From the NCBI GenBank assembly GCA_009937575.1, contig JAACFI010000010.1:1-32070 (forward strand): a DNA stretch of 32,070 bases, read 5' to 3'. Under the pieces are notes generated by a model, which was not told the DNA's origin, did not search any database, and worked only from the letters and a program-made list of their open reading frames with translations. A program made the translations under genes and the position numbers. Shown piece by piece: positions 25,923 through 32,070 of the stretch (positions are counted from its first letter, which is position 1; every line of letters begins with the position of its first letter). Origin of the DNA: Haliea sp. GTDB lineage: Bacteria; Pseudomonadota; Gammaproteobacteria; Pseudomonadales; Halieaceae.

Positions 25923-26828
25923 TTATTCGTTAACCCCCGGAAACGAATACTCATGTCCCCACAAATCCCCCTCGGTGCTGACCGTGGCCACGTGGGTCTC
26001 GGGGTCAATCAGCAGCCCATCGTAGCCGTATTCCACCGCGATACCACCCGGTGCCAGCAGGTAGACCGAGCACATGTTGTCGTTGACGTGTCTGCCCAGG
26101 GTGGCCAGGAAGTGGCTGCCGGCGGCCTTTGCCCGGTCCATGCACCTGCCCAACTCGTCCATGGTTTCCACTTCCACCATAATGTGAACAACCCCGGCGG
26201 GGTGGGGGCCGTTGAACAGGGCGAGGGAGTGCTGGCGCGGGTTATTGGCGTGCATGAAGGTGATCTGCACGCCCTCCATCCCTGGGGGGTACAGGGTGTC
26301 GGTGATGCCGGTACCAATGAGGTCGGTGTAGAACGCTATAGTGGCCTCCGTTTCAGGCGCCGGCAGTACGAAGTGGCCGAAACCCAGGTCGCCTATCTGC
26401 TGGTAACTGCTAACGAAAGCCGGAACTCCGGCCGCTGAGTTGAAGGGCACGTAGTCCAGTTCGCGGCCGTGGTACAACTCCAGCTGGTTGCCCGAGGGAT
26501 CCTTGACCGAGGCAAAGGCGGTGACGCAACGACGCTTCGCCTGTTCCGCGCTCCCGGGAGTCACTTCGTGGCCGGCGGCTGCCAGGGCGTCGCAGGTGGC
26601 TTGCCAGGCCGCTGCAGTGGGATACTCCATCCCGGCGGCGATCAGCCGGTCACCATCACCGGGTTCGATCATGAAACGGAACGGATGCTCGTCCAGGCGC
26701 AGGAAACGCGCGCCCTGGGCGTCTTCGCGGCGGGCATCCATCAGGCCCAGCACGTCGGTGCCGAAATCCATCCAGGCGTCGACGTTCGAGGCCTCGATCC
26801 TCAGGTATCCCGATGCTGCTACTGACAT
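25923..26828 (-). CDS. Extradiol ring-cleavage dioxygenase, BphC/HsaC-like (VOC family)
   Basis: A 301-residue two-domain type I extradiol dioxygenase. It is expected to open a catecholic ring next to the two hydroxyls (meta-cleavage) using Fe(II) and O2, as with 2,3-dihydroxybiphenyl or the steroid catechol 3,4-DHSA. The iron ligands are His152 (FGHFVL), His215 (VVHIMVEV) and Glu266 (AVEYG). Second-sphere residues known from BphC are also present: His200 (NPRQHS), His247 and Asn249 (GRHVND) and Tyr256. The N-terminal GYLRIEASNVDAWMDFGTDVLG and C-terminal LWGHEYSF are characteristic. All evidence indicates an active enzyme. ATG 26828 has AAGGAG. It is divergent from the DUF35/thiolase-like/acyl-CoA synthetase operon. 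No hydrolase or hydroxylase partner is adjacent, though a nucleophile-less hydrolase and a Rieske remnant lie 20 kb away. Confidence 0.92.
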   Translation of the reverse strand: MSVAASGYLRIEASNVDAWMDFGTDVLGLMDARREDAQGARFLRLDEHPFRFMIEPGDGDRLIAAGMEYPTAAAWQATCDALAAAGHEVTPGSAEQAKRRCVTAFASVKDPSGNQLELYHGRELDYVPFNSAAGVPAFVSSYQQIGDLGFGHFVLPAPETEATIAFYTDLIGTGITDTLYPPGMEGVQITFMHANNPRQHSLALFNGPHPAGVVHIMVEVETMDELGRCMDRAKAAGSHFLATLGRHVNDNMCSVYLLAPGGIAVEYGYDGLLIDPETHVATVSTEGDLWGHEYSFPGVNE

Positions 26829-27105
26829 AACTTGTCTCTCCTTCTGGTTTAGTGACGCCTATTATCGGTTTTTTGGCCGAGGGGCGACAGCGCGAGACGG
26901 CATTTCTCCCGGGTCTGGTATAAGTAAGGCAACCTGTTGATAAATCTTGCAGTGCCCCCGGGCTATCGCGCATCCCTCAAACGGCGGACAGGCTTATTGA
27001 TCTCAAAAGTCATACTCACTTGATCCTTTCCGTCATTGAGGCCCGGCGCCCACTCCCTGATACTCCCATGACTGAATCCATCCGCAGTTGAGGAGGGCCG
27101 TGACC
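26829..27105. promoter_or_regulatory. Divergent gap between extradiol dioxygenase and DUF35 operon
   Basis: A 277-bp gap without a supported gene. A TATAAG hexamer at 26919-26924 could be a -10 element for the rightward operon, but I see no convincing -35. A CGG-t6-GGCCG stretch lies near 26865. The gap should hold promoters for both directions. Confidence 0.35.
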
Positions 27106-27546
27106 GTGTCGCAGCCGGAAGTGCTACAACAGAGCTTTGAGCTTGGTTTCACCTACACCCGGTCTGTCGGGCCTGTGGTCGGTCGATTTCTGACCGAACT
27201 CAGGAACCGCAATATCGTGGGTATCAAGGCATCCGATGGTCGTGTGGTTGTGCCCCCCATGGAGTACGACCCGGATACCGCAGAGGAACTCAGTGAGTTC
27301 GTCGAAGTGGGGCAGGAGGGCGAAATCGTCAGTTTTGCCTGGGTCAAGGAACCGCGGGAAGCTCACCCCATGGACCGGCCATTTGCCTGGGCCATGATCA
27401 GGCTGGACGGGGCCGACGTGCCGATGATCCACTGCGTCGCCGCCAATGCAGAGAGTGATGTCGCTACCGGCGCCCGGGTGAAGGCCGTATGGGCCGATGA
27501 AACCATCGGCTTTATTACCGATATCCGCTGTTTCGAACTGGCCTAG
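27106..27546 (+). CDS. DUF35 OB-fold protein with degenerate zinc ribbon
   Basis: 146 residues. The layout is that of DUF35 proteins: an N-terminal helix (GPVVGRFLTELRNRNIVG), a ribbon region ending in the family PP (VVVPPMEY) and a C-terminal OB fold (FVEVGQEGEIVSFAWV to GARVKAVWADETIGFITDIRCFE). Aligned on that PP to the next gene product, the four zinc-binding cysteines are replaced by Lys41, Asp44, Asp55 and Thr58, so the zinc ribbon is lost. DUF35 partners bind thiolase-fold enzymes and complete their active complex. It probably pairs with one of the two thiolase-fold proteins downstream. GTG 27106 is chosen (AGGAGG 9 nt upstream); GTG 27100 and TTG 27088 are in frame. First gene of a five-gene operon. 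Confidence 0.8.
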   Translation: MSQPEVLQQSFELGFTYTRSVGPVVGRFLTELRNRNIVGIKASDGRVVVPPMEYDPDTAEELSEFVEVGQEGEIVSFAWVKEPREAHPMDRPFAWAMIRLDGADVPMIHCVAANAESDVATGARVKAVWADETIGFITDIRCFELA

Positions 27547-27558
27547 GAGGTACTGGCA

Positions 27559-28086
27559 ATGAGCGAAGAACAGGACGTAATCACCGGCATCGAAGCGCCG
27601 GTCTATCTCAAGTACAACTTCACCGCCGGCGCTGCCGCAGCGCGGTTTCTTCACCAGATCAAGAAGGGGGTGCTGACAGGGCAGCGCTGCCCGAGCTGCC
27701 AGCAGGTTTATATACCCCCCCGGGGTTCCTGTGCAGCCTGCGGCTGTCCCACCGAGGAAGAGGTCGAAGTCGCGGACAAGGCGACCATACAGTCGTTCAC
27801 CATCGTCACCATCCCGATTCCGAACAACCCGATCCAGCCGCCCTACATCATCGCCAACCTGGTGGCGGACGGTGCCAATATTTCCTTCCTGCACCTGATC
27901 AGCGAGTGTGTCAACGAGGACGTCCACATCGGCCAGCGCGTGCAGGCGCTGTGGAAGCCGGAAGAGGAGTGGGATTATGCCATGGACAATATCAGGTATT
28001 TCAGGCCGATCGACGAACCGGACGTGCCGGTGGAGATGATCGGTAAACTGCCGGTGACCGGTTGGGAGGGCTCTGCAGATGACTGA
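27559..28086 (+). CDS. Zn-ribbon OB-fold (DUF35) protein
   Basis: 175 residues with an intact rubredoxin-like zinc ribbon: Cys44, Cys47, Cys58 and Cys61 in RCPSCQQVYIPPRGSCAACG. An OB fold follows (ATIQSFTIVTIPIPNNPIQPPYIIANLVADG to GQRVQALWKPEEEWDYAMDNIRYF). In actinobacterial steroid degradation a DUF35 domain (of ChsH2) binds the thiolase-fold aldolase Ltp2 and is needed for its activity. A similar subunit role is inferred here. The 12-bp gap before it and the 8-bp overlap with the thiolase-fold gene after it show tight co-translation. ATG 27559 has AGGAGG 9 nt upstream. Confidence 0.88.
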   Translation: MSEEQDVITGIEAPVYLKYNFTAGAAAARFLHQIKKGVLTGQRCPSCQQVYIPPRGSCAACGCPTEEEVEVADKATIQSFTIVTIPIPNNPIQPPYIIANLVADGANISFLHLISECVNEDVHIGQRVQALWKPEEEWDYAMDNIRYFRPIDEPDVPVEMIGKLPVTGWEGSADD

Positions 28087-29137
28087 TATAGCAATCGTTG
28101 CCTACCAGCAGACCGACGCGGTCAGTGACGCGGGCGCGGTCAATGAAGTGGAACTGATCATCCCGGTACTGGGCCGTGTGTTCGAGCAGGCCGGCCTGAC
28201 CAACTCTCAGGACGTGGACTTTGTCTGTTCCGGCAGCTGCGACTACCTGCAAGGCGCGGCCTTCGCCTTCGTTCTCGGGGTGGATGCCCTGGGCGCCGTG
28301 CCACCCATCAAGGAATCTCACGTGGAGATGGACGCGGCCTGGGCCCTGTATGAATCAATTCTCAAGATCCGCATGGGGCACGCCGAGTCAGCCCTGGTGT
28401 ACGGTTTCGGCAAGTCGTCCCCCGGCGAGTTGCCCATCGTCCTGTCCCAGCAGCTGGATCCCTATTACCTGGCGCCCCAGTGGATCGATGCCATCTCCCT
28501 GGCCGCCCTGCAAGCCCGGCAGATGCTGGACCAGGGTCTGGTGAGCGAGCGCGATATGGCTGAAGTGGTGGCCCGTTCACGCAACAACGCGCTGAACAAC
28601 CCCCACGCGCAACTGGCGGGCGAGGTCAGCGTCGATGACGTGCTCGCCGAGGACACCTACGTCTCGCCCCTGCGCAAGGCGGACTGTTGCCCGGTATCGG
28701 ACGGCGCCAGCGCGATGATTATCGCCACGGTGGAAAAAGCGGAGGAGTGGGGTAAACCCTATGCCGTTATCAGCGGTATCGATCACCGCATCGAGACCCA
28801 CAACCTGGGTATGCGGGACCTCACCGACTCGCTGTCGACCCGCCAGGCAGCCGAGGGTGCCGGTATGGGACAGGGCAGGGTGGACGTGGCGGAACTCTAT
28901 GCCCCCTTCAGTCACCAGGAGATTATTCTCACGAGGGCGCTCGGCCTGGGTGAAGAGACCAGCATCAACCCCAGCGGAGGCGTGCTGGCGGGCAATATGA
29001 TGATGGCGTCTGGCCTGTCCCGGGTAGGCGAGGTGTTCGACCGTATCGTCAGTGGCGAGGCAGAGCGGGGGATCGCCCATGCGACCTCAGGGCCCTGCCT
29101 GCAACACAACCTGGTAACCGTATTGGAGAAAGCGTGA
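28079..29137 (+). CDS. Thiolase-fold lipid-transfer/Ltp2-like protein 1
   Basis: 352 residues with the thiolase/SCP-x fold (SDGASAMIIAT at about 207-217, INPSGGVLAGN at 296-306). It lacks thiolase chemistry residues: the acylated Cys site falls in HVEMDAAWAL (81-90, no Cys), the His of the usual GHPxGxxG block is Asn306, and the C-terminal Cys-Gly-Gly block reads HATSGPCLQHN (334-344). That is the state of Ltp2-type steroid side-chain retro-aldolases, where a Tyr in a block like AELYAPFS (here Tyr274) is conserved. A thiolase activity is therefore unlikely, and aldolase or other C-C lyase activity on a CoA ester is inferred. The start overlaps the DUF35 stop by 8 bp. Confidence 0.85.
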   Translation: MTDIAIVAYQQTDAVSDAGAVNEVELIIPVLGRVFEQAGLTNSQDVDFVCSGSCDYLQGAAFAFVLGVDALGAVPPIKESHVEMDAAWALYESILKIRMGHAESALVYGFGKSSPGELPIVLSQQLDPYYLAPQWIDAISLAALQARQMLDQGLVSERDMAEVVARSRNNALNNPHAQLAGEVSVDDVLAEDTYVSPLRKADCCPVSDGASAMIIATVEKAEEWGKPYAVISGIDHRIETHNLGMRDLTDSLSTRQAAEGAGMGQGRVDVAELYAPFSHQEIILTRALGLGEETSINPSGGVLAGNMMMASGLSRVGEVFDRIVSGEAERGIAHATSGPCLQHNLVTVLEKA

Positions 29138-30300
29138 TGGCTAACCTGGCAGCAGTGGTCGGTATCGGCCAGACGAAATACACCACCAAGCGCGATGACG
29201 TATCCATTGCGGGCCTGGTGCGGGAAGCGGCGGTCAATGCCCTGCAAGATGCGGGGCTGACCTGGGACGACATCGAGGCGGTGATCATCGGCAAGGCACC
29301 GGACATGTTCGAGGGTGTGATTATGCCCGAGATCTACCTCACCGACGCCCTGGGCTGCAACGGCAAGCCCATGCTGCGGGTACACACCGCGGGCTCCGTG
29401 GGTGGCTCCACCGCGCTGGTGGCGGCCTCCCATGTGCAGAGCGGCAGCTTCAAGCGGGTGTTGACCGTGGCCTTCGAGAAACAGTCCGAGTCGAACGCCA
29501 TGTGGGCCCTGTCCAACCCGCACCCCTTTTCCACTCACCTCAATGCCGGTGCCGGCGGCTACTTCGCGCCTATTATCCGCGAGTACATGCGCCGTTCCGA
29601 GGCGCCCCATGACGTGGGTATCAAGGTGGCGGTAAAAGACCGCCTGCACGGCGCCCGCAACCCGCTGGCCCACCTGCAGAAACCGGACATCACCATGCAG
29701 GAAGTGGAGGAGTCCTTCATGCTGTGGGACCCGATCCGCTTCCTGGAGTCCTGCCCGTCCTCCGACGGCGCCTGCGCCATGGTGATCGCCAACGAGGAGC
29801 TGGCGGAACAGGCACCCAAACCGCCCGCCTGGATCCGCGGGGTGGCCATGCGTTCGGAGCCCACCATGTACGCCGGACGCGAGGAGGTTAGCCCCCAGGC
29901 CGGGCGCGATTGCGCCGCCGATGTCTACCAGCAGGCGGGCATTACCGATCCTCGCCGGGACCTGGACTGCGCGGAAGTTTACGTGCCCTTCAGCTGGTAC
30001 GAGCCCATGTGGCTGGAAAACCTGGGTTTTGCCCCCGAGGGCGAAGGCTGGAAACTGACCATGGAAGGCGCTACCTCGCTGGATGAGGGCGGGGATATCC
30101 CCTGGAACCCCTCCGGCGGCGTGCTGTCTTCCAACCCCATCGGCGCCTCCGGCATGATTCGCTTCGCCGAGGCCGCCCGCCAGGTGCGTGGCGACGCCGG
30201 AGCCCACCAGGTAGAAGGGGCGAAGTTGGCCCTGGGCCATGCTTACGGGGGTGGTGCCCAGTTCTTTTCCATGTGGGTCGTAGGCGCCGAAAAACCCTGA
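29137..30300 (+). CDS. Thiolase-fold lipid-transfer/Ltp2-like protein 2
   Basis: 387 residues, a second thiolase-fold protein, diverged from its neighbour. N-terminal VVGIGQTKYTTKRDDVSIAGLVREA is typical of SCP-x/Ltp proteins. The nucleophile loop reads HTAGSVGGSTAL (83-94), with Ser87 where thiolases have Cys. The GHPxGxxG block is SNPIGASG with Asn333, and the C-terminus is GHAYGGGAQFF without Cys. AEVYVPFSWYEP (Tyr282) matches the conserved tyrosine block seen in the first protein. The two may form a heteromer with the two DUF35 proteins or act on successive intermediates. ATG 29137 shares one base with the previous stop (TGATG) and has GGAGAA upstream; GTG 29134 is less likely. Confidence 0.86.
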   Translation: MANLAAVVGIGQTKYTTKRDDVSIAGLVREAAVNALQDAGLTWDDIEAVIIGKAPDMFEGVIMPEIYLTDALGCNGKPMLRVHTAGSVGGSTALVAASHVQSGSFKRVLTVAFEKQSESNAMWALSNPHPFSTHLNAGAGGYFAPIIREYMRRSEAPHDVGIKVAVKDRLHGARNPLAHLQKPDITMQEVEESFMLWDPIRFLESCPSSDGACAMVIANEELAEQAPKPPAWIRGVAMRSEPTMYAGREEVSPQAGRDCAADVYQQAGITDPRRDLDCAEVYVPFSWYEPMWLENLGFAPEGEGWKLTMEGATSLDEGGDIPWNPSGGVLSSNPIGASGMIRFAEAARQVRGDAGAHQVEGAKLALGHAYGGGAQFFSMWVVGAEKP

Positions 30301-30320
30301 TCAATTCCTAGGAGATCATC

Positions 30321-31949
30321 GTGACCAGTCACTTCAATATTGCCGATATGTACGAAATCGTCGCCGACAGGGTGCCCTCCCGGGATGCCCTGGTATGTGG
30401 CGACCAGCGGGCCACCTTCGCCCAGTTGGACGAGCGTGCCAACAAACTTGCCCACTACCTGGCGCAGCAGGGCGTGGGGGCCGGGAACCACGTGGGGCTG
30501 TACCTCTACAACTGCAATGAATACCTCGAGGGTATGCTGGCCTGCTTCAAGATTCGCGCCGTACCGATCAACGTCAATTACCGCTATGTACAGGACGAAC
30601 TGCTGTATATCTTTGACAATGCGGACATGGTGGCCTGTATTCATAACCGCGAGTTCGCGCCGCATATTGCGGAGGTGCTGGATTCGGCACCCGACCTGAA
30701 AACCCTGGTTTACGTGGAGGATGAGAGCGACGCGGATCCCGGTACCATCGGTTCGGTGGAGTACGAGTCCGCTATGAACGGCCAGACTGCGGAGCGGGAT
30801 TTCGGCGAACGGGCCGATGACGACCTGTTCATCCTCTATACCGGTGGCACCACCGGCATGCCCAAGGGGGTGATGTGGCCTCACAAGAGTGTGTTCTTCG
30901 CCGCCATGGGTGGCGGCGGCTGGTTCCATCCGGACGGTGCCATCAGCTCGCCCGAGCAGATTGCCGATCGCATCGGTGATTTCCCCATCGTGGGGATGGC
31001 ACTGGCGCCGCTGATGCATGGCGCCTGCTGGTGGTACGCCTGTATCCAGCTACTGGCGGGTAACACGGTGGTACTGAATCCCTCCCGCTCCCTGGTGGGC
31101 GAGGAGGTCTGGGACATCGTGGCGAAGGAGAAAGTCAACGCCATCTCCATCGTCGGCGACGCCATGGCGGTGCCCCTGCTGGATGCCCTTGACGCCAACC
31201 TGGATCGCTGGGACCTGAGCTCCATTTTCAGTGTGGGCTCCGGCGGCGCGGTGTTCTCCGAGAGCAAGCAGGAGTCGTTCAAACAACATTTCCCCAACGT
31301 CTTTATCACCAATTCTTTCGGCTCATCCGAAAGCGGTAACATGGGTATGGACGGTGGCGGCAAGAAGGGGCAGGGCCTGGGCAATGTCACCAAGAGCGAG
31401 TTCATGTCAGTGATCAGCGACGTGGAGGGCGAGCTCCACCGGCACGTAGAGCCCGGGGAAATGGGTATTTTCGCCCGCAGTGGTTATATCCCGGTGGGTT
31501 ACTACAATGACCCGGGAAAGACCGCGAAAACCATCGTCGAGGTGGACGGCAAGCCCTGGTTGCTGCTGGGGGACGAGGCACGGCTGGAGGAAGACAACAG
31601 CATCACCGTCTACGGTCGCGGTTCCAACTGCATCAATACCGGGGGTGAAAAAGTGTTCCCGGAAGAAGTGGAGCAGGCCCTGAAAGCCAACCCGGCGATC
31701 TTCGACGCCCTGGTGGTGGCCACCCCCGACGAGCGCTTCGGCAGCAAGGTGACCGCGGTGGTAACCCGCCGCGGCGACGCCGAGCTGACCCTGGATGCGG
31801 TGCAGGAAGATGCACGCAAGTATATCGCCGGCTACAAGGTCCCGCGGGAATTGCACGTGGTCGATGAGGTCCCCCGGGCCCCCAGCGGTAAGCCCGCGTA
31901 CCCCAAAGCATTGGAGATCGCCTTGTCGGGTGAGCACAGGGTAGCGTAA
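30321..31949 (+). CDS. Acyl-CoA synthetase (AMP-forming), steroid-FadD-like
   Basis: A 542-residue ANL-superfamily ligase that activates a carboxylic acid to its CoA thioester via an acyl-adenylate. P-loop YTGGTTGMPKG is at 173-183. The adenine-binding SFGSSESG takes the place of the usual YGxTE. The hinge Asp/Arg region is LLLGDEARLEEDNSITVYGRG, GEKVFPEEVE follows, and the catalytic Lys524 is in SGKPAYPK. The INVNYRYVQDELLYIFDNAD block is characteristic of the FadD19/FadD17-like group that activates steroid or other bulky side chains. Substrate is not proven. GTG 30321 has TAGGAG 7 nt upstream, 20 bp after the preceding stop. It is the last gene of the five-gene operon and would supply the CoA ester its partners act on. 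Confidence 0.9.
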   Translation: MTSHFNIADMYEIVADRVPSRDALVCGDQRATFAQLDERANKLAHYLAQQGVGAGNHVGLYLYNCNEYLEGMLACFKIRAVPINVNYRYVQDELLYIFDNADMVACIHNREFAPHIAEVLDSAPDLKTLVYVEDESDADPGTIGSVEYESAMNGQTAERDFGERADDDLFILYTGGTTGMPKGVMWPHKSVFFAAMGGGGWFHPDGAISSPEQIADRIGDFPIVGMALAPLMHGACWWYACIQLLAGNTVVLNPSRSLVGEEVWDIVAKEKVNAISIVGDAMAVPLLDALDANLDRWDLSSIFSVGSGGAVFSESKQESFKQHFPNVFITNSFGSSESGNMGMDGGGKKGQGLGNVTKSEFMSVISDVEGELHRHVEPGEMGIFARSGYIPVGYYNDPGKTAKTIVEVDGKPWLLLGDEARLEEDNSITVYGRGSNCINTGGEKVFPEEVEQALKANPAIFDALVVATPDERFGSKVTAVVTRRGDAELTLDAVQEDARKYIAGYKVPRELHVVDEVPRAPSGKPAYPKALEIALSGEHRVA

Positions 31950-31955
31950 AAGAAA

Positions 31956-31980
31956 TGGTGCGCGGTGCGCACCCTACGGG
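31956..31980 (+). repeat. REP-like palindromic element, copy 5
   Basis: GGTGCGC-ggt-GCGCACC followed by CTACGGG, starting 7 bp after the acyl-CoA synthetase stop. With copy 6 it forms a head-to-head pair like a BIME unit, possibly ending or stabilising the operon transcript. Confidence 0.72.
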
Positions 31981-31992
31981 TCCTTCGATCGG

Positions 31993-32016
31993 ACGCAGGG
32001 TGCGCACCGCGCACCT
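31993..32016 (-). repeat. REP-like palindromic element, copy 6 (inverted)
   Basis: GCAGGGTGCGC-acc-GCGCACC, inverted relative to copy 5 and 12 bp away. The two copies can also pair with each other into one long stem. Flank after it (CCTTGGAACTTCGTTCGAT) resembles that after copy 4. Confidence 0.7.
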
Positions 32017-32041: not shown

Positions 32042-32070
32042 ATGGATCAAACCATGCCCGAACTCGATAT
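32042..32070 (+). CDS. Possible start of next gene, cut by window edge
   Basis: An ATG at 32042 or 32054 opens a frame (MDQTMPELD...) to the window end. Only 9 codons are visible, with no clear ribosome site, so function cannot be judged. The position after the REP pair and on the same strand as the operon makes a new gene plausible. Confidence 0.3.

Follow-up and report, generated by a model that had tools for sequence, protein, structure and literature searches.

The 32,070-nucleotide stretch analysed here, called the window below, comes from Haliea sp. (GenBank assembly GCA_009937575.1, contig JAACFI010000010.1, positions 1 to 32,070, forward strand) and carries towards its right end a block of five genes encoding two DUF35 proteins, two thiolase-fold proteins and an acyl-CoA synthetase. 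Very likely, this block is orthologous to the Ltp3-Ltp4 aldol-lyase module with which actinobacteria attack sterol side chains and represents its gammaproteobacterial form; it would best be read as an Ltp3/Ltp4 retro-aldolase stapled by DUF35 proteins and acting on sterol-CoA thioesters, a substrate, reaction and subunit arrangement that we infer. An earlier interpretation made without database searches (the sequence-only reading) had proposed a candidate undescribed system for CoA-dependent C-C cleavage in a gammaproteobacterium, whose substrate might differ from the classic steroid. The host is indeed gammaproteobacterial (Halioglobus-like), and CoA-dependent C-C cleavage appears likely, with a retro-aldolase as the nearest chemistry. 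However, the family is already known from actinobacterial genetics, the block being an orthologue of actinobacterial ltp4/ltp3/fadD19/echA19 with partly conserved synteny, and the proposed departure from steroids is not supported, since the literature ties the orthologous set to C24-branched sterol side chains and homologues of steroid genes co-occur with the block.

Five consecutive open reading frames (ORFs) cover positions 27088 to 31949 of the plus strand, and Pfam or NCBIfam domains were assigned to all of them. The first, DUF35 A (27106..27546), has an OB-fold (PF01796, 45.7 bits), lacks the zinc-ribbon cysteines and corresponds to the N-terminal half of the DUF35 fusion found in Rhodococcus, Amycolatopsis, Zhongshania and others; its frame opens at 27088 (TTG), the GTG at 27106 being the likelier start with an AGGAGG 9 nt upstream. 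DUF35 B (27559..28086) combines a zinc ribbon (PF12172, CPxC..CxxC) with an OB-fold (PF01796), and all four cysteines of the ribbon are present in 42 of 74 sequences. These are followed by an Ltp4-like thiolase-fold subunit of 352 amino acids (28079..29137; NF005924, 476.5 bits for a cut-off of 419), an Ltp3-like thiolase-fold subunit (29137..30300; NF006180, 680.2 bits, cut-off 514) and a FadD19-like acyl-CoA synthetase (30321..31949; NF005863, 657.8 bits, cut-off 543), all on the plus strand. The names ltp and fadD19 are absent from the NCBIfam models and are assigned by us from protein lengths and synteny. Ltp3 could start at 29134, 29137 or 29140, relatives including L049 and L057 (loci are numbered with L, genomes with G) starting at the ATG equivalent to 29140. 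The two DUF35 genes are separated by 12 bp, DUF35 B and Ltp4 overlap by 8 bp, Ltp3 and the ligase gene are 20 bp apart, and Ltp4 and Ltp3 meet either in a 1-bp overlap (ATG 29137) or across a 2-bp gap (ATG 29140). Reading frames, domains and spacing thus agree on five real and tightly packed genes, as first described, with the 1-bp overlap depending on the 29137 start.

Relatives were collected by scanning GTDB species genomes with an Ltp4 alignment, which gave at least 551, and the best 80 loci, picked by Ltp4 similarity, were analysed. The order DUF35 A-DUF35 B-Ltp4-Ltp3 on one strand is kept in 76 of these 80 loci, and the remaining four are cut by contig ends, which remove Ltp3 in L104, L106 and L128 and fall inside DUF35 B in L107 (no DUF35 A; excluded from the fusion and order counts). 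Such conservation exceeds chance and confirms that the block is conserved as a unit. Judging by record titles, the hosts include Halioglobus, Seongchinamella, Spongiibacter, Zhongshania, Endozoicomonas, SAR86 and Deltaproteobacteria/Myxococcota bins, as well as Acidimicrobiaceae, Rhodococcus, Amycolatopsis, Prauserella, Saccharopolyspora and Streptomyces. One record titled 'Klebsiella pneumoniae', a metagenome-assembled genome (L101), bears a block that clusters with uncultured Gammaproteobacteria/Pseudomonadales, and its title looks wrong. In a class-wide sample of 369 genomes, the Ltp4 family was found in two, one being the window's own.

DUF35 A and DUF35 B are fused into one frame in 30 of 79 loci and are separate in 49, and the fused or split state changes six times on a tree of 73 rows; these changes suggest recurrent fusion or fission, as would be expected for two proteins working as one unit. 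The position of the ligase varies: among the 77 loci with Ltp3, it directly follows Ltp3 in 36, lies further downstream in two and is found upstream on the opposite strand in 15, all of which are actinobacteria by title (the fadD19 position), while 19 have none within the available DNA and five are cut after Ltp3.

The actinobacterial ltp4-ltp3-fadD19-echA19 set (Rhodococcus, Mycobacterium, Saccharopolyspora) resembles the block in reaching the same NCBIfam families over cut-off, in the adjacency of ltp4 and ltp3, in the DUF35 placed before them and in the proximity of FadD19 and EchA19 families. On the contrary, the window presents a single one-direction operon with split DUF35s, an intact zinc ribbon, which is lost in Rhodococcus L127, and a divergent dioxygenase of ring-cleavage type. 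Compared with five actinobacterial loci (L109, L116, L117, L121, L127), its Ltp3 is 66-70% identical, its Ltp4 53-57%, DUF35 A 49-59% and DUF35 B 37-47%, and its ligase is 45-48% identical to those of the 15 actinobacterial loci; of the whole-block identity above 60% to a characterised system that the sequence-only reading had named as evidence against itself, only Ltp3 shows such a value. In Rhodococcus erythropolis (L127), where the Ltp4, Ltp3 and ligase families are also reached, the syntenic block is surrounded by an EchA19 equivalog (443.7 bits, cut-off 400) beside the ligase (NF005863, 822 bits), and by a steroid 3-ketoacyl-CoA thiolase gene (726.5 bits, cut-off 515) that adjoins a P450. 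Published locus numbers agree with this order: in Mycobacterium sp. VKM Ac-1817D, ltp3, ltp4, echA19 and fadD19 are neighbours (PMC6593523), as are ltp3, ltp4 and fadD19 in Saccharopolyspora hirsuta, with ltp3/ltp4 given as aldol lyases (PMC8708139).

In a tree of concatenated Ltp4 and Ltp3 comprising 73 rows, obtained by a quick search with a midpoint root and showing several long branches, the 18 actinobacterial rows cluster together (SH-aLRT 99), and the window falls within a mostly Halieaceae group. A recent transfer from actinobacteria into this lineage was considered and has left no sign in this tree; no direction of transfer is claimed.

Both thiolase-fold subunits have lost residues typical of thiolases. 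In a profile alignment to 6esq, Glu83 of the Ltp4 segment ESHVEMD stands at the nucleophile Cys with no gap nearby, and this segment is invariant in 51 of 51 aligned Ltp4 rows; Pro occupies the place of the HDCF Cys, also with no gap nearby, and Asn that of the GHP His, beside a one-residue gap, the window motif reading YAPF (274-277). Aligned with the SCP2-thiolase 6hsj, the window Ltp3 has Gly, Pro and Asn at the nucleophile, HDCF Cys and GHP His, respectively. Among 79 Ltp4 and 73 Ltp3 sequences out of 81 possible (80 loci and the window, short or stop-containing sequences being excluded), the HDCF Cys is Pro in 73/73 Ltp3 and 76/79 Ltp4, the GHP His is Asn in 73/73 and 73/79, and the first HDCF position is Tyr in all 73 Ltp3 (YVPF) and Tyr, His or Leu in 41, 37 and one of the 79 Ltp4.

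AlphaFold single-chain models of Ltp3 and Ltp4 (mean pLDDT 84.7 and 89.9) fit 6esq with Z 48.7 (rmsd 2.0, 367 aligned) and Z 44.6 (rmsd 2.0, 341 aligned), respectively. The Ltp3 model also matches PhlC (Z 46.5), BbsB (46.3), Ltp2 (43.2) and Sal (41.9), which are listed for Ltp4 too, so that thiolase-fold enzymes with DUF35 partners rank among the best fits for both. As the ordinary SCP2 thiolase 6hsp fits equally well (Z 47.4 for Ltp3, 40.3 for Ltp4), which is a point against an aldolase, the fold alone cannot separate aldolase from thiolase. This fold, together with weak Pfam thiolase matches and the high structural ranking of SCP2 thiolases, is what could suggest that both proteins work in beta-oxidation as ordinary 3-ketoacyl-CoA thiolases, but we hold this to be extremely improbable given that the nucleophile Cys has become Gly in Ltp3 and Glu in Ltp4 and that Pro and Asn mostly replace the HDCF Cys and GHP His; for the window, where all three residues are replaced in both subunits, an ordinary thiolase is ruled out as far as sequence alone allows.

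In Ltp2, Tyr294 of YDHF is the catalytic base and Tyr344 the acid, and in Sal, Tyr302 takes the position of the motif Tyr, Cys304 is the acid and Gly replaces the nucleophile (PMC12329534). The block resembles Ltp2-ChsH2 (PDB 6ok1) in pairing a thiolase-fold aldolase with a DUF35 partner, in having the motif place of the base Tyr occupied by Tyr and in the fit of the models (Z 43.2 for Ltp3, 36.6 for Ltp4), but the YDHF motif is YVPF or [YH]APF here, Asn aligns with the place of Tyr344, the DUF35s of the window are not fused to a MaoC hydratase, and there are two distinct thiolase-fold genes. Similarly, the bile-acid aldolase Sal-Shy (PDB 9myr) has a DUF35 partner, the motif Tyr and, as in Ltp3 only, a Gly for the nucleophile Cys, whereas its catalytic Cys304 (YDCY) is Pro here and the Cys3His ribbon of Shy is a four-Cys ribbon in the DUF35 B of the window. 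The benzoylsuccinyl-CoA thiolase BbsAB (PDB 7pxp) also keeps DUF35 (BbsA) and thiolase-fold (BbsB) proteins as separate genes, but in the alignment BbsB retains both the nucleophile Cys and the His of GHP, and the BbsAB equivalog cut-offs are far from reached (for BbsB, 56 and 124 bits against 750; for BbsA, 22.6 bits against 250). An orthologue of Ltp2 or Sal was rejected, as the YDHF/YDCY motif is lacking and the Ltp2 family (NF005892, cut-off 469) is not reached by either the Ltp3-like (146.4 bits) or the Ltp4-like protein (54.1 bits). The nearest chemistry would be that of a retro-aldolase of Ltp2/Sal type, and Ltp3 is likely the catalytic subunit, being the better candidate of the two.

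Tentatively, and with less than even confidence, we propose that the block represents a third catalytic design, in which an obligate Ltp3/Ltp4 hetero-pair would be held by a two-domain DUF35 partner, fused or split, would do without the Cys/His/Tyr donors of Ltp2/Sal and would take its base Tyr from Ltp3, Ltp4 with its ESHVEMD segment being no dead copy but a contributor to the active site or to a pocket for the branch. Present in marine Halieaceae, Spongiibacteraceae and SAR86, such a design would, if true, explain how these bacteria consume algal C24-branched sterols.

A competing subunit arrangement has the DUF35 pair linking two homodimers, as in PhlABC or thiolase/HMG-CoA-synthase, instead of an Ltp3/Ltp4 heterodimer flanked by DUF35s. 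In thiolase/HMG-CoA-synthase and PhlABC, a second enzyme of the thiolase superfamily is likewise in contact with the DUF35 protein (PMC12329534), both complexes are among the best structural matches, and the DUF35 A-B fusion would suit a bridge; by contrast, a review terms Ltp3-Ltp4 a heteromeric aldol-lyase for C24 branches (PMC6678751), and Sal-Shy(DUF35) is an alpha-beta-beta-alpha assembly with a central thiolase-fold dimer (PMC12329534). We regard the bridged homodimers as a serious but somewhat doubtful option. The 2+2 complex envisaged by the sequence-only reading is still inferred, with some help from the natural DUF35 fusion.

The steroid context was examined in the window's genome (G000) and 37 relatives, 38 genomes in all, with 14 control genomes; this set overlaps with the 80 loci (G007:C42 is L049 and G032:C1 is L101), and the two are thus not independent samples. 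Presence of the module was counted by matches over the curated cut-off, plus the Ltp4 of G006, which is split over two contigs with each piece below cut-off, and the Ltp3 and Ltp4 families then occur in the same 19 of the 38 genomes. At E <= 1e-3, NF005924 matches 38 of 38 genomes of the relatives' set and 11 of 14 controls, which is too loose to count, and none of the 14 controls exceeds the cut-off for NF005924, NF006180, KshA_C or HsaC; this control covers the profile searches, the EchA19-like and CYP125-like protein queries having no equivalent. The term CYP125-like for the P450 query is our assumption, from its position beside the steroid thiolase. KshA_C (E <= 1e-20) is present in 19/19 genomes with the module vs 3/19 without, HsaC-like genes (E <= 1e-40) in 18/19 vs 3/19, EchA19-like genes (E <= 1e-60) in 18/19 vs 1/19 and CYP125-like P450s (E <= 1e-60) in 19/19 vs 2/19. 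Fisher p values range from 1.3e-6 to 1.2e-8 for these four, and remain below 1e-4 for each within the 25 genomes of the family, but the shared ancestry of the relatives makes them overstate independence, which tempers the case. The Ltp2 family is over cut-off in 13/19 genomes with the module vs 1/19 without (p 1.1e-4). By homology only, the window's genome has seven KshA_C matches, one HsaC-like match (below cut-off) and four CYP125-like ones.

It is in this light that another CoA-activated substrate has to be weighed, such as a bile acid, an arylpropanoate or another isoprenoid, the steroid genes being coincidental to lifestyle. Complexes of thiolase-fold and DUF35 proteins do serve several substrates (benzoylsuccinyl-CoA, acetoacetyl-CoA/HMG-CoA, phloroglucinols), and we know of no activity established for the gammaproteobacterial proteins; however, the co-occurrence of KshA-, HsaC-, CYP125- and EchA19-like genes and the actinobacterial synteny with steroid thiolase, P450 and EchA19 render this explanation unlikely, and a P450 for alkyl side chains, if truly one, points to sterols instead of bile acids.

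On the sterol reading, a CYP125-like P450 encoded elsewhere in the genome would oxidise C26 of the sterol, the FadD19-like ligase (30321-31949) would form the CoA thioester of the C26-oxidised sterol, an acyl-CoA dehydrogenase encoded elsewhere would introduce the double bond, and the EchA19-like hydratase (from 32054, same operon) would hydroxylate C24, the beta carbon, by hydration. The Ltp3/Ltp4 pair with its two DUF35 proteins would then cut the chain by retro-aldol cleavage and not by thiolysis. A tertiary alcohol cannot be oxidised to a ketone, and an aldolase would be needed rather than a thiolase because the C24 alkyl branch makes the beta-hydroxyl tertiary, so that no 3-ketoacyl-CoA is possible. 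Ltp3 (29137-30300) would be catalytic, the invariant Tyr of YVPF replacing the catalytic-base Tyr of Ltp2/Sal, Ltp4 would serve as its obligate thiolase-fold partner, and the DUF35 proteins would act as stapling and substrate-shaping domains. One published scheme puts a C28 carboxylation first (PMC6678751); direct cleavage is kept open here, since no carboxylase for that scheme is among the 10 recurrent flank families annotated, an absence that also counts against the reading. FadD19 is required for branched and not for straight sterol chains in M. smegmatis, where echA19 is non-essential (PMC6273163), which limits conclusions on the hydratase.

The operon probably continues beyond the ligase into this hydratase gene. 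The last 17 bases of the window, from 32054 on the plus strand, read ATG CCC GAA CTC GAT AT, and their first five codons (MPELD; 32054..32070) match the N-terminus of the next gene in relatives (MPELDISTKNC in L057, MAELDISTKNC in L049), making this the apparent start of an EchA19-like enoyl-CoA hydratase truncated by the contig end. The gene after the ligase is an EchA19-like hydratase in 27 of 33 relatives with enough downstream DNA, and the two gammaproteobacterial homologues scanned pass NF005864 (316). The window's genome is the only one of the 19 with the module that lacks an EchA19-like match at E <= 1e-60, which fits a contig ending inside the gene (the match of G006 is cut short). The absence of an adjacent hydratase, which the sequence-only reading had noted, is thus probably an effect of the contig end.

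Several observations weigh against the sterol aldolase reading. Ltp3 sits 1.6 kb behind Ltp4 in L126 and its frame is broken in two pieces in L091, the GHP His is kept in 6 of 79 Ltp4, and the acid/base pairs of Ltp2 (Tyr/Tyr) or Sal (Tyr/Cys) are present in neither subunit. The same two gammaproteobacterial hydratases score 322 and 331, below the EchA19 equivalog cut-off of 400, no HsaC-like match reaches its curated cut-off in any of the 38 genomes, and the P450 query carries no curated family name, its matches being 33-43% identical. The Ltp2 family is not over cut-off in the window's genome and five other genomes with the module, and is present in one genome without it. Finally, the literature consulted contained no biochemical proof for any Ltp3/Ltp4.

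As far as the literature consulted shows, three elements are new: the one-operon gammaproteobacterial form, the recognition that a DUF35 pair is conserved along with Ltp3/Ltp4 as their partner and is often fused, and an active site that differs from those of both solved steroid aldolases. By gene order, Rv3521 would be the fused DUF35 protein. A paper that names Rv3521, Rv3522 and Rv3523 together gives Rv3521 as a conserved hypothetical protein; the DUF35 pair is likely an overlooked partner of Ltp3/Ltp4. Sterols branched at C24 are common in algae and plants. The block together with the CYP125-like P450s supplies specific candidate genes for the removal of sterol side chains by marine gammaproteobacteria, C24-branched chains included. 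In 2016, an article reported no evidence for 9,10-seco cholesterol catabolism in Proteobacteria, CYP125/CYP142 orthologues being absent (PMC4810484), and in 2018 sponge isolates of Halieaceae and Spongiibacteraceae were grown on cholesterol, with genomic analysis deferred (PMC5790920); no description of Ltp3/Ltp4 in Proteobacteria or of sterol genes in these families was found in titles and passages of the open-licence literature. One of the sponge isolates, BC51 (Halieaceae), grows on cholesterol (PMC5790920), and L057, titled Halioglobus japonicus isolate BC5_1, carries the block with an Ltp4 83% identical; by their names, BC51 and BC5_1 would be the same strain.

Some additional features were noticed around the module and its neighbours. 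Between the ligase and the EchA19-like start lies an inverted repeat (31958-32016) with 19-bp arms, GGTGCGCGGTGCGCACCCT and AGGGTGCGCACCGCGCACC. Partial copies of its left part make up 38 of the 46 matches listed, hence at least 38 (40 of 226 candidates were scored), and some copies stand at contig edges (C206, C23, C327). The repeat is a dispersed REP-like element, which perhaps explains the contig break here. Genes of the CoA-transferase III and nitroreductase families and a second enoyl-CoA hydratase recur 3' of echA19 (L071:14983-17636 and other relatives; cluster representatives were scanned). The window's genome has a second ligase gene (G000:C331:13328-14657, L048) with patches of 69-73% DNA identity to that of the block; it sits behind another coding ORF and a TetR-like ORF, and in a reading by eye, with no family scan, no Ltp or DUF35 was noticed nearby. 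In G031, an Ltp2 gene is found about 14 kb from the module, beside acyl-CoA dehydrogenase-like and MaoC-like ORFs (also by eye). KshA- and HsaC-like genes are present and the module absent in G014, G034 and G037, which may degrade steroids without branched side chains.

Upstream of the block, an extradiol dioxygenase gene lies on the minus strand (25923..26828), nearest to HsaC (246 bits, below the NF045631 cut-off of 450) and BphC (236 bits, also below cut-off), and it is the divergent neighbour in many Halieaceae. It is the sole HsaC-like gene of the window's genome at E <= 1e-40, and its homologue stands directly beside the block in 7 of the 38 genomes (G000, G001, G002, G007, G012, G013, G018), none of which has a better-scoring HsaC-like gene elsewhere at that threshold; in G017, the homologue is 2 kb from the block and a better-scoring HsaC-like gene is present elsewhere. 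This dioxygenase may perform the ring-A cleavage step of steroid degradation.

Comparison of 21 divergent spacers (loci whose dioxygenase and DUF35 A genes lie 50-600 bases apart) revealed a promoter-like conserved region (26998..27064, plus strand). A generic consensus promoter scan found none in this region. A mismatch-free search for its double repeat, TGATCN6GTCA, in the window's genome matched only its own site, and up to three mismatches gave five sites, its own included, against one for the reversed-pattern control. A weight matrix run on 60 loci (L001-L008, L129-L180, mostly steroid-gene loci) gave a single foreign score above the shuffles, 15.1 in L164 compared with at most 6.8 in 10 shuffles, but this is far below the 54-71 of 19 of the 21 training sites, and no second site is claimed. 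The direct repeat occurs twice, at 26998-27012 and 27021-27035, 23 bp apart, and is followed by TTGAGG (27036-27041), a 17-nt spacer and GATACT (27059-27064). Among the spacers, the first repeat is recognised by eye in 21/21 (with a one-base shift in L073), an exact second repeat occurs in 13/21, and GTCATTGAG is common to all 21. The region looks like an activator-dependent promoter, with the double repeat as possible activator sites.

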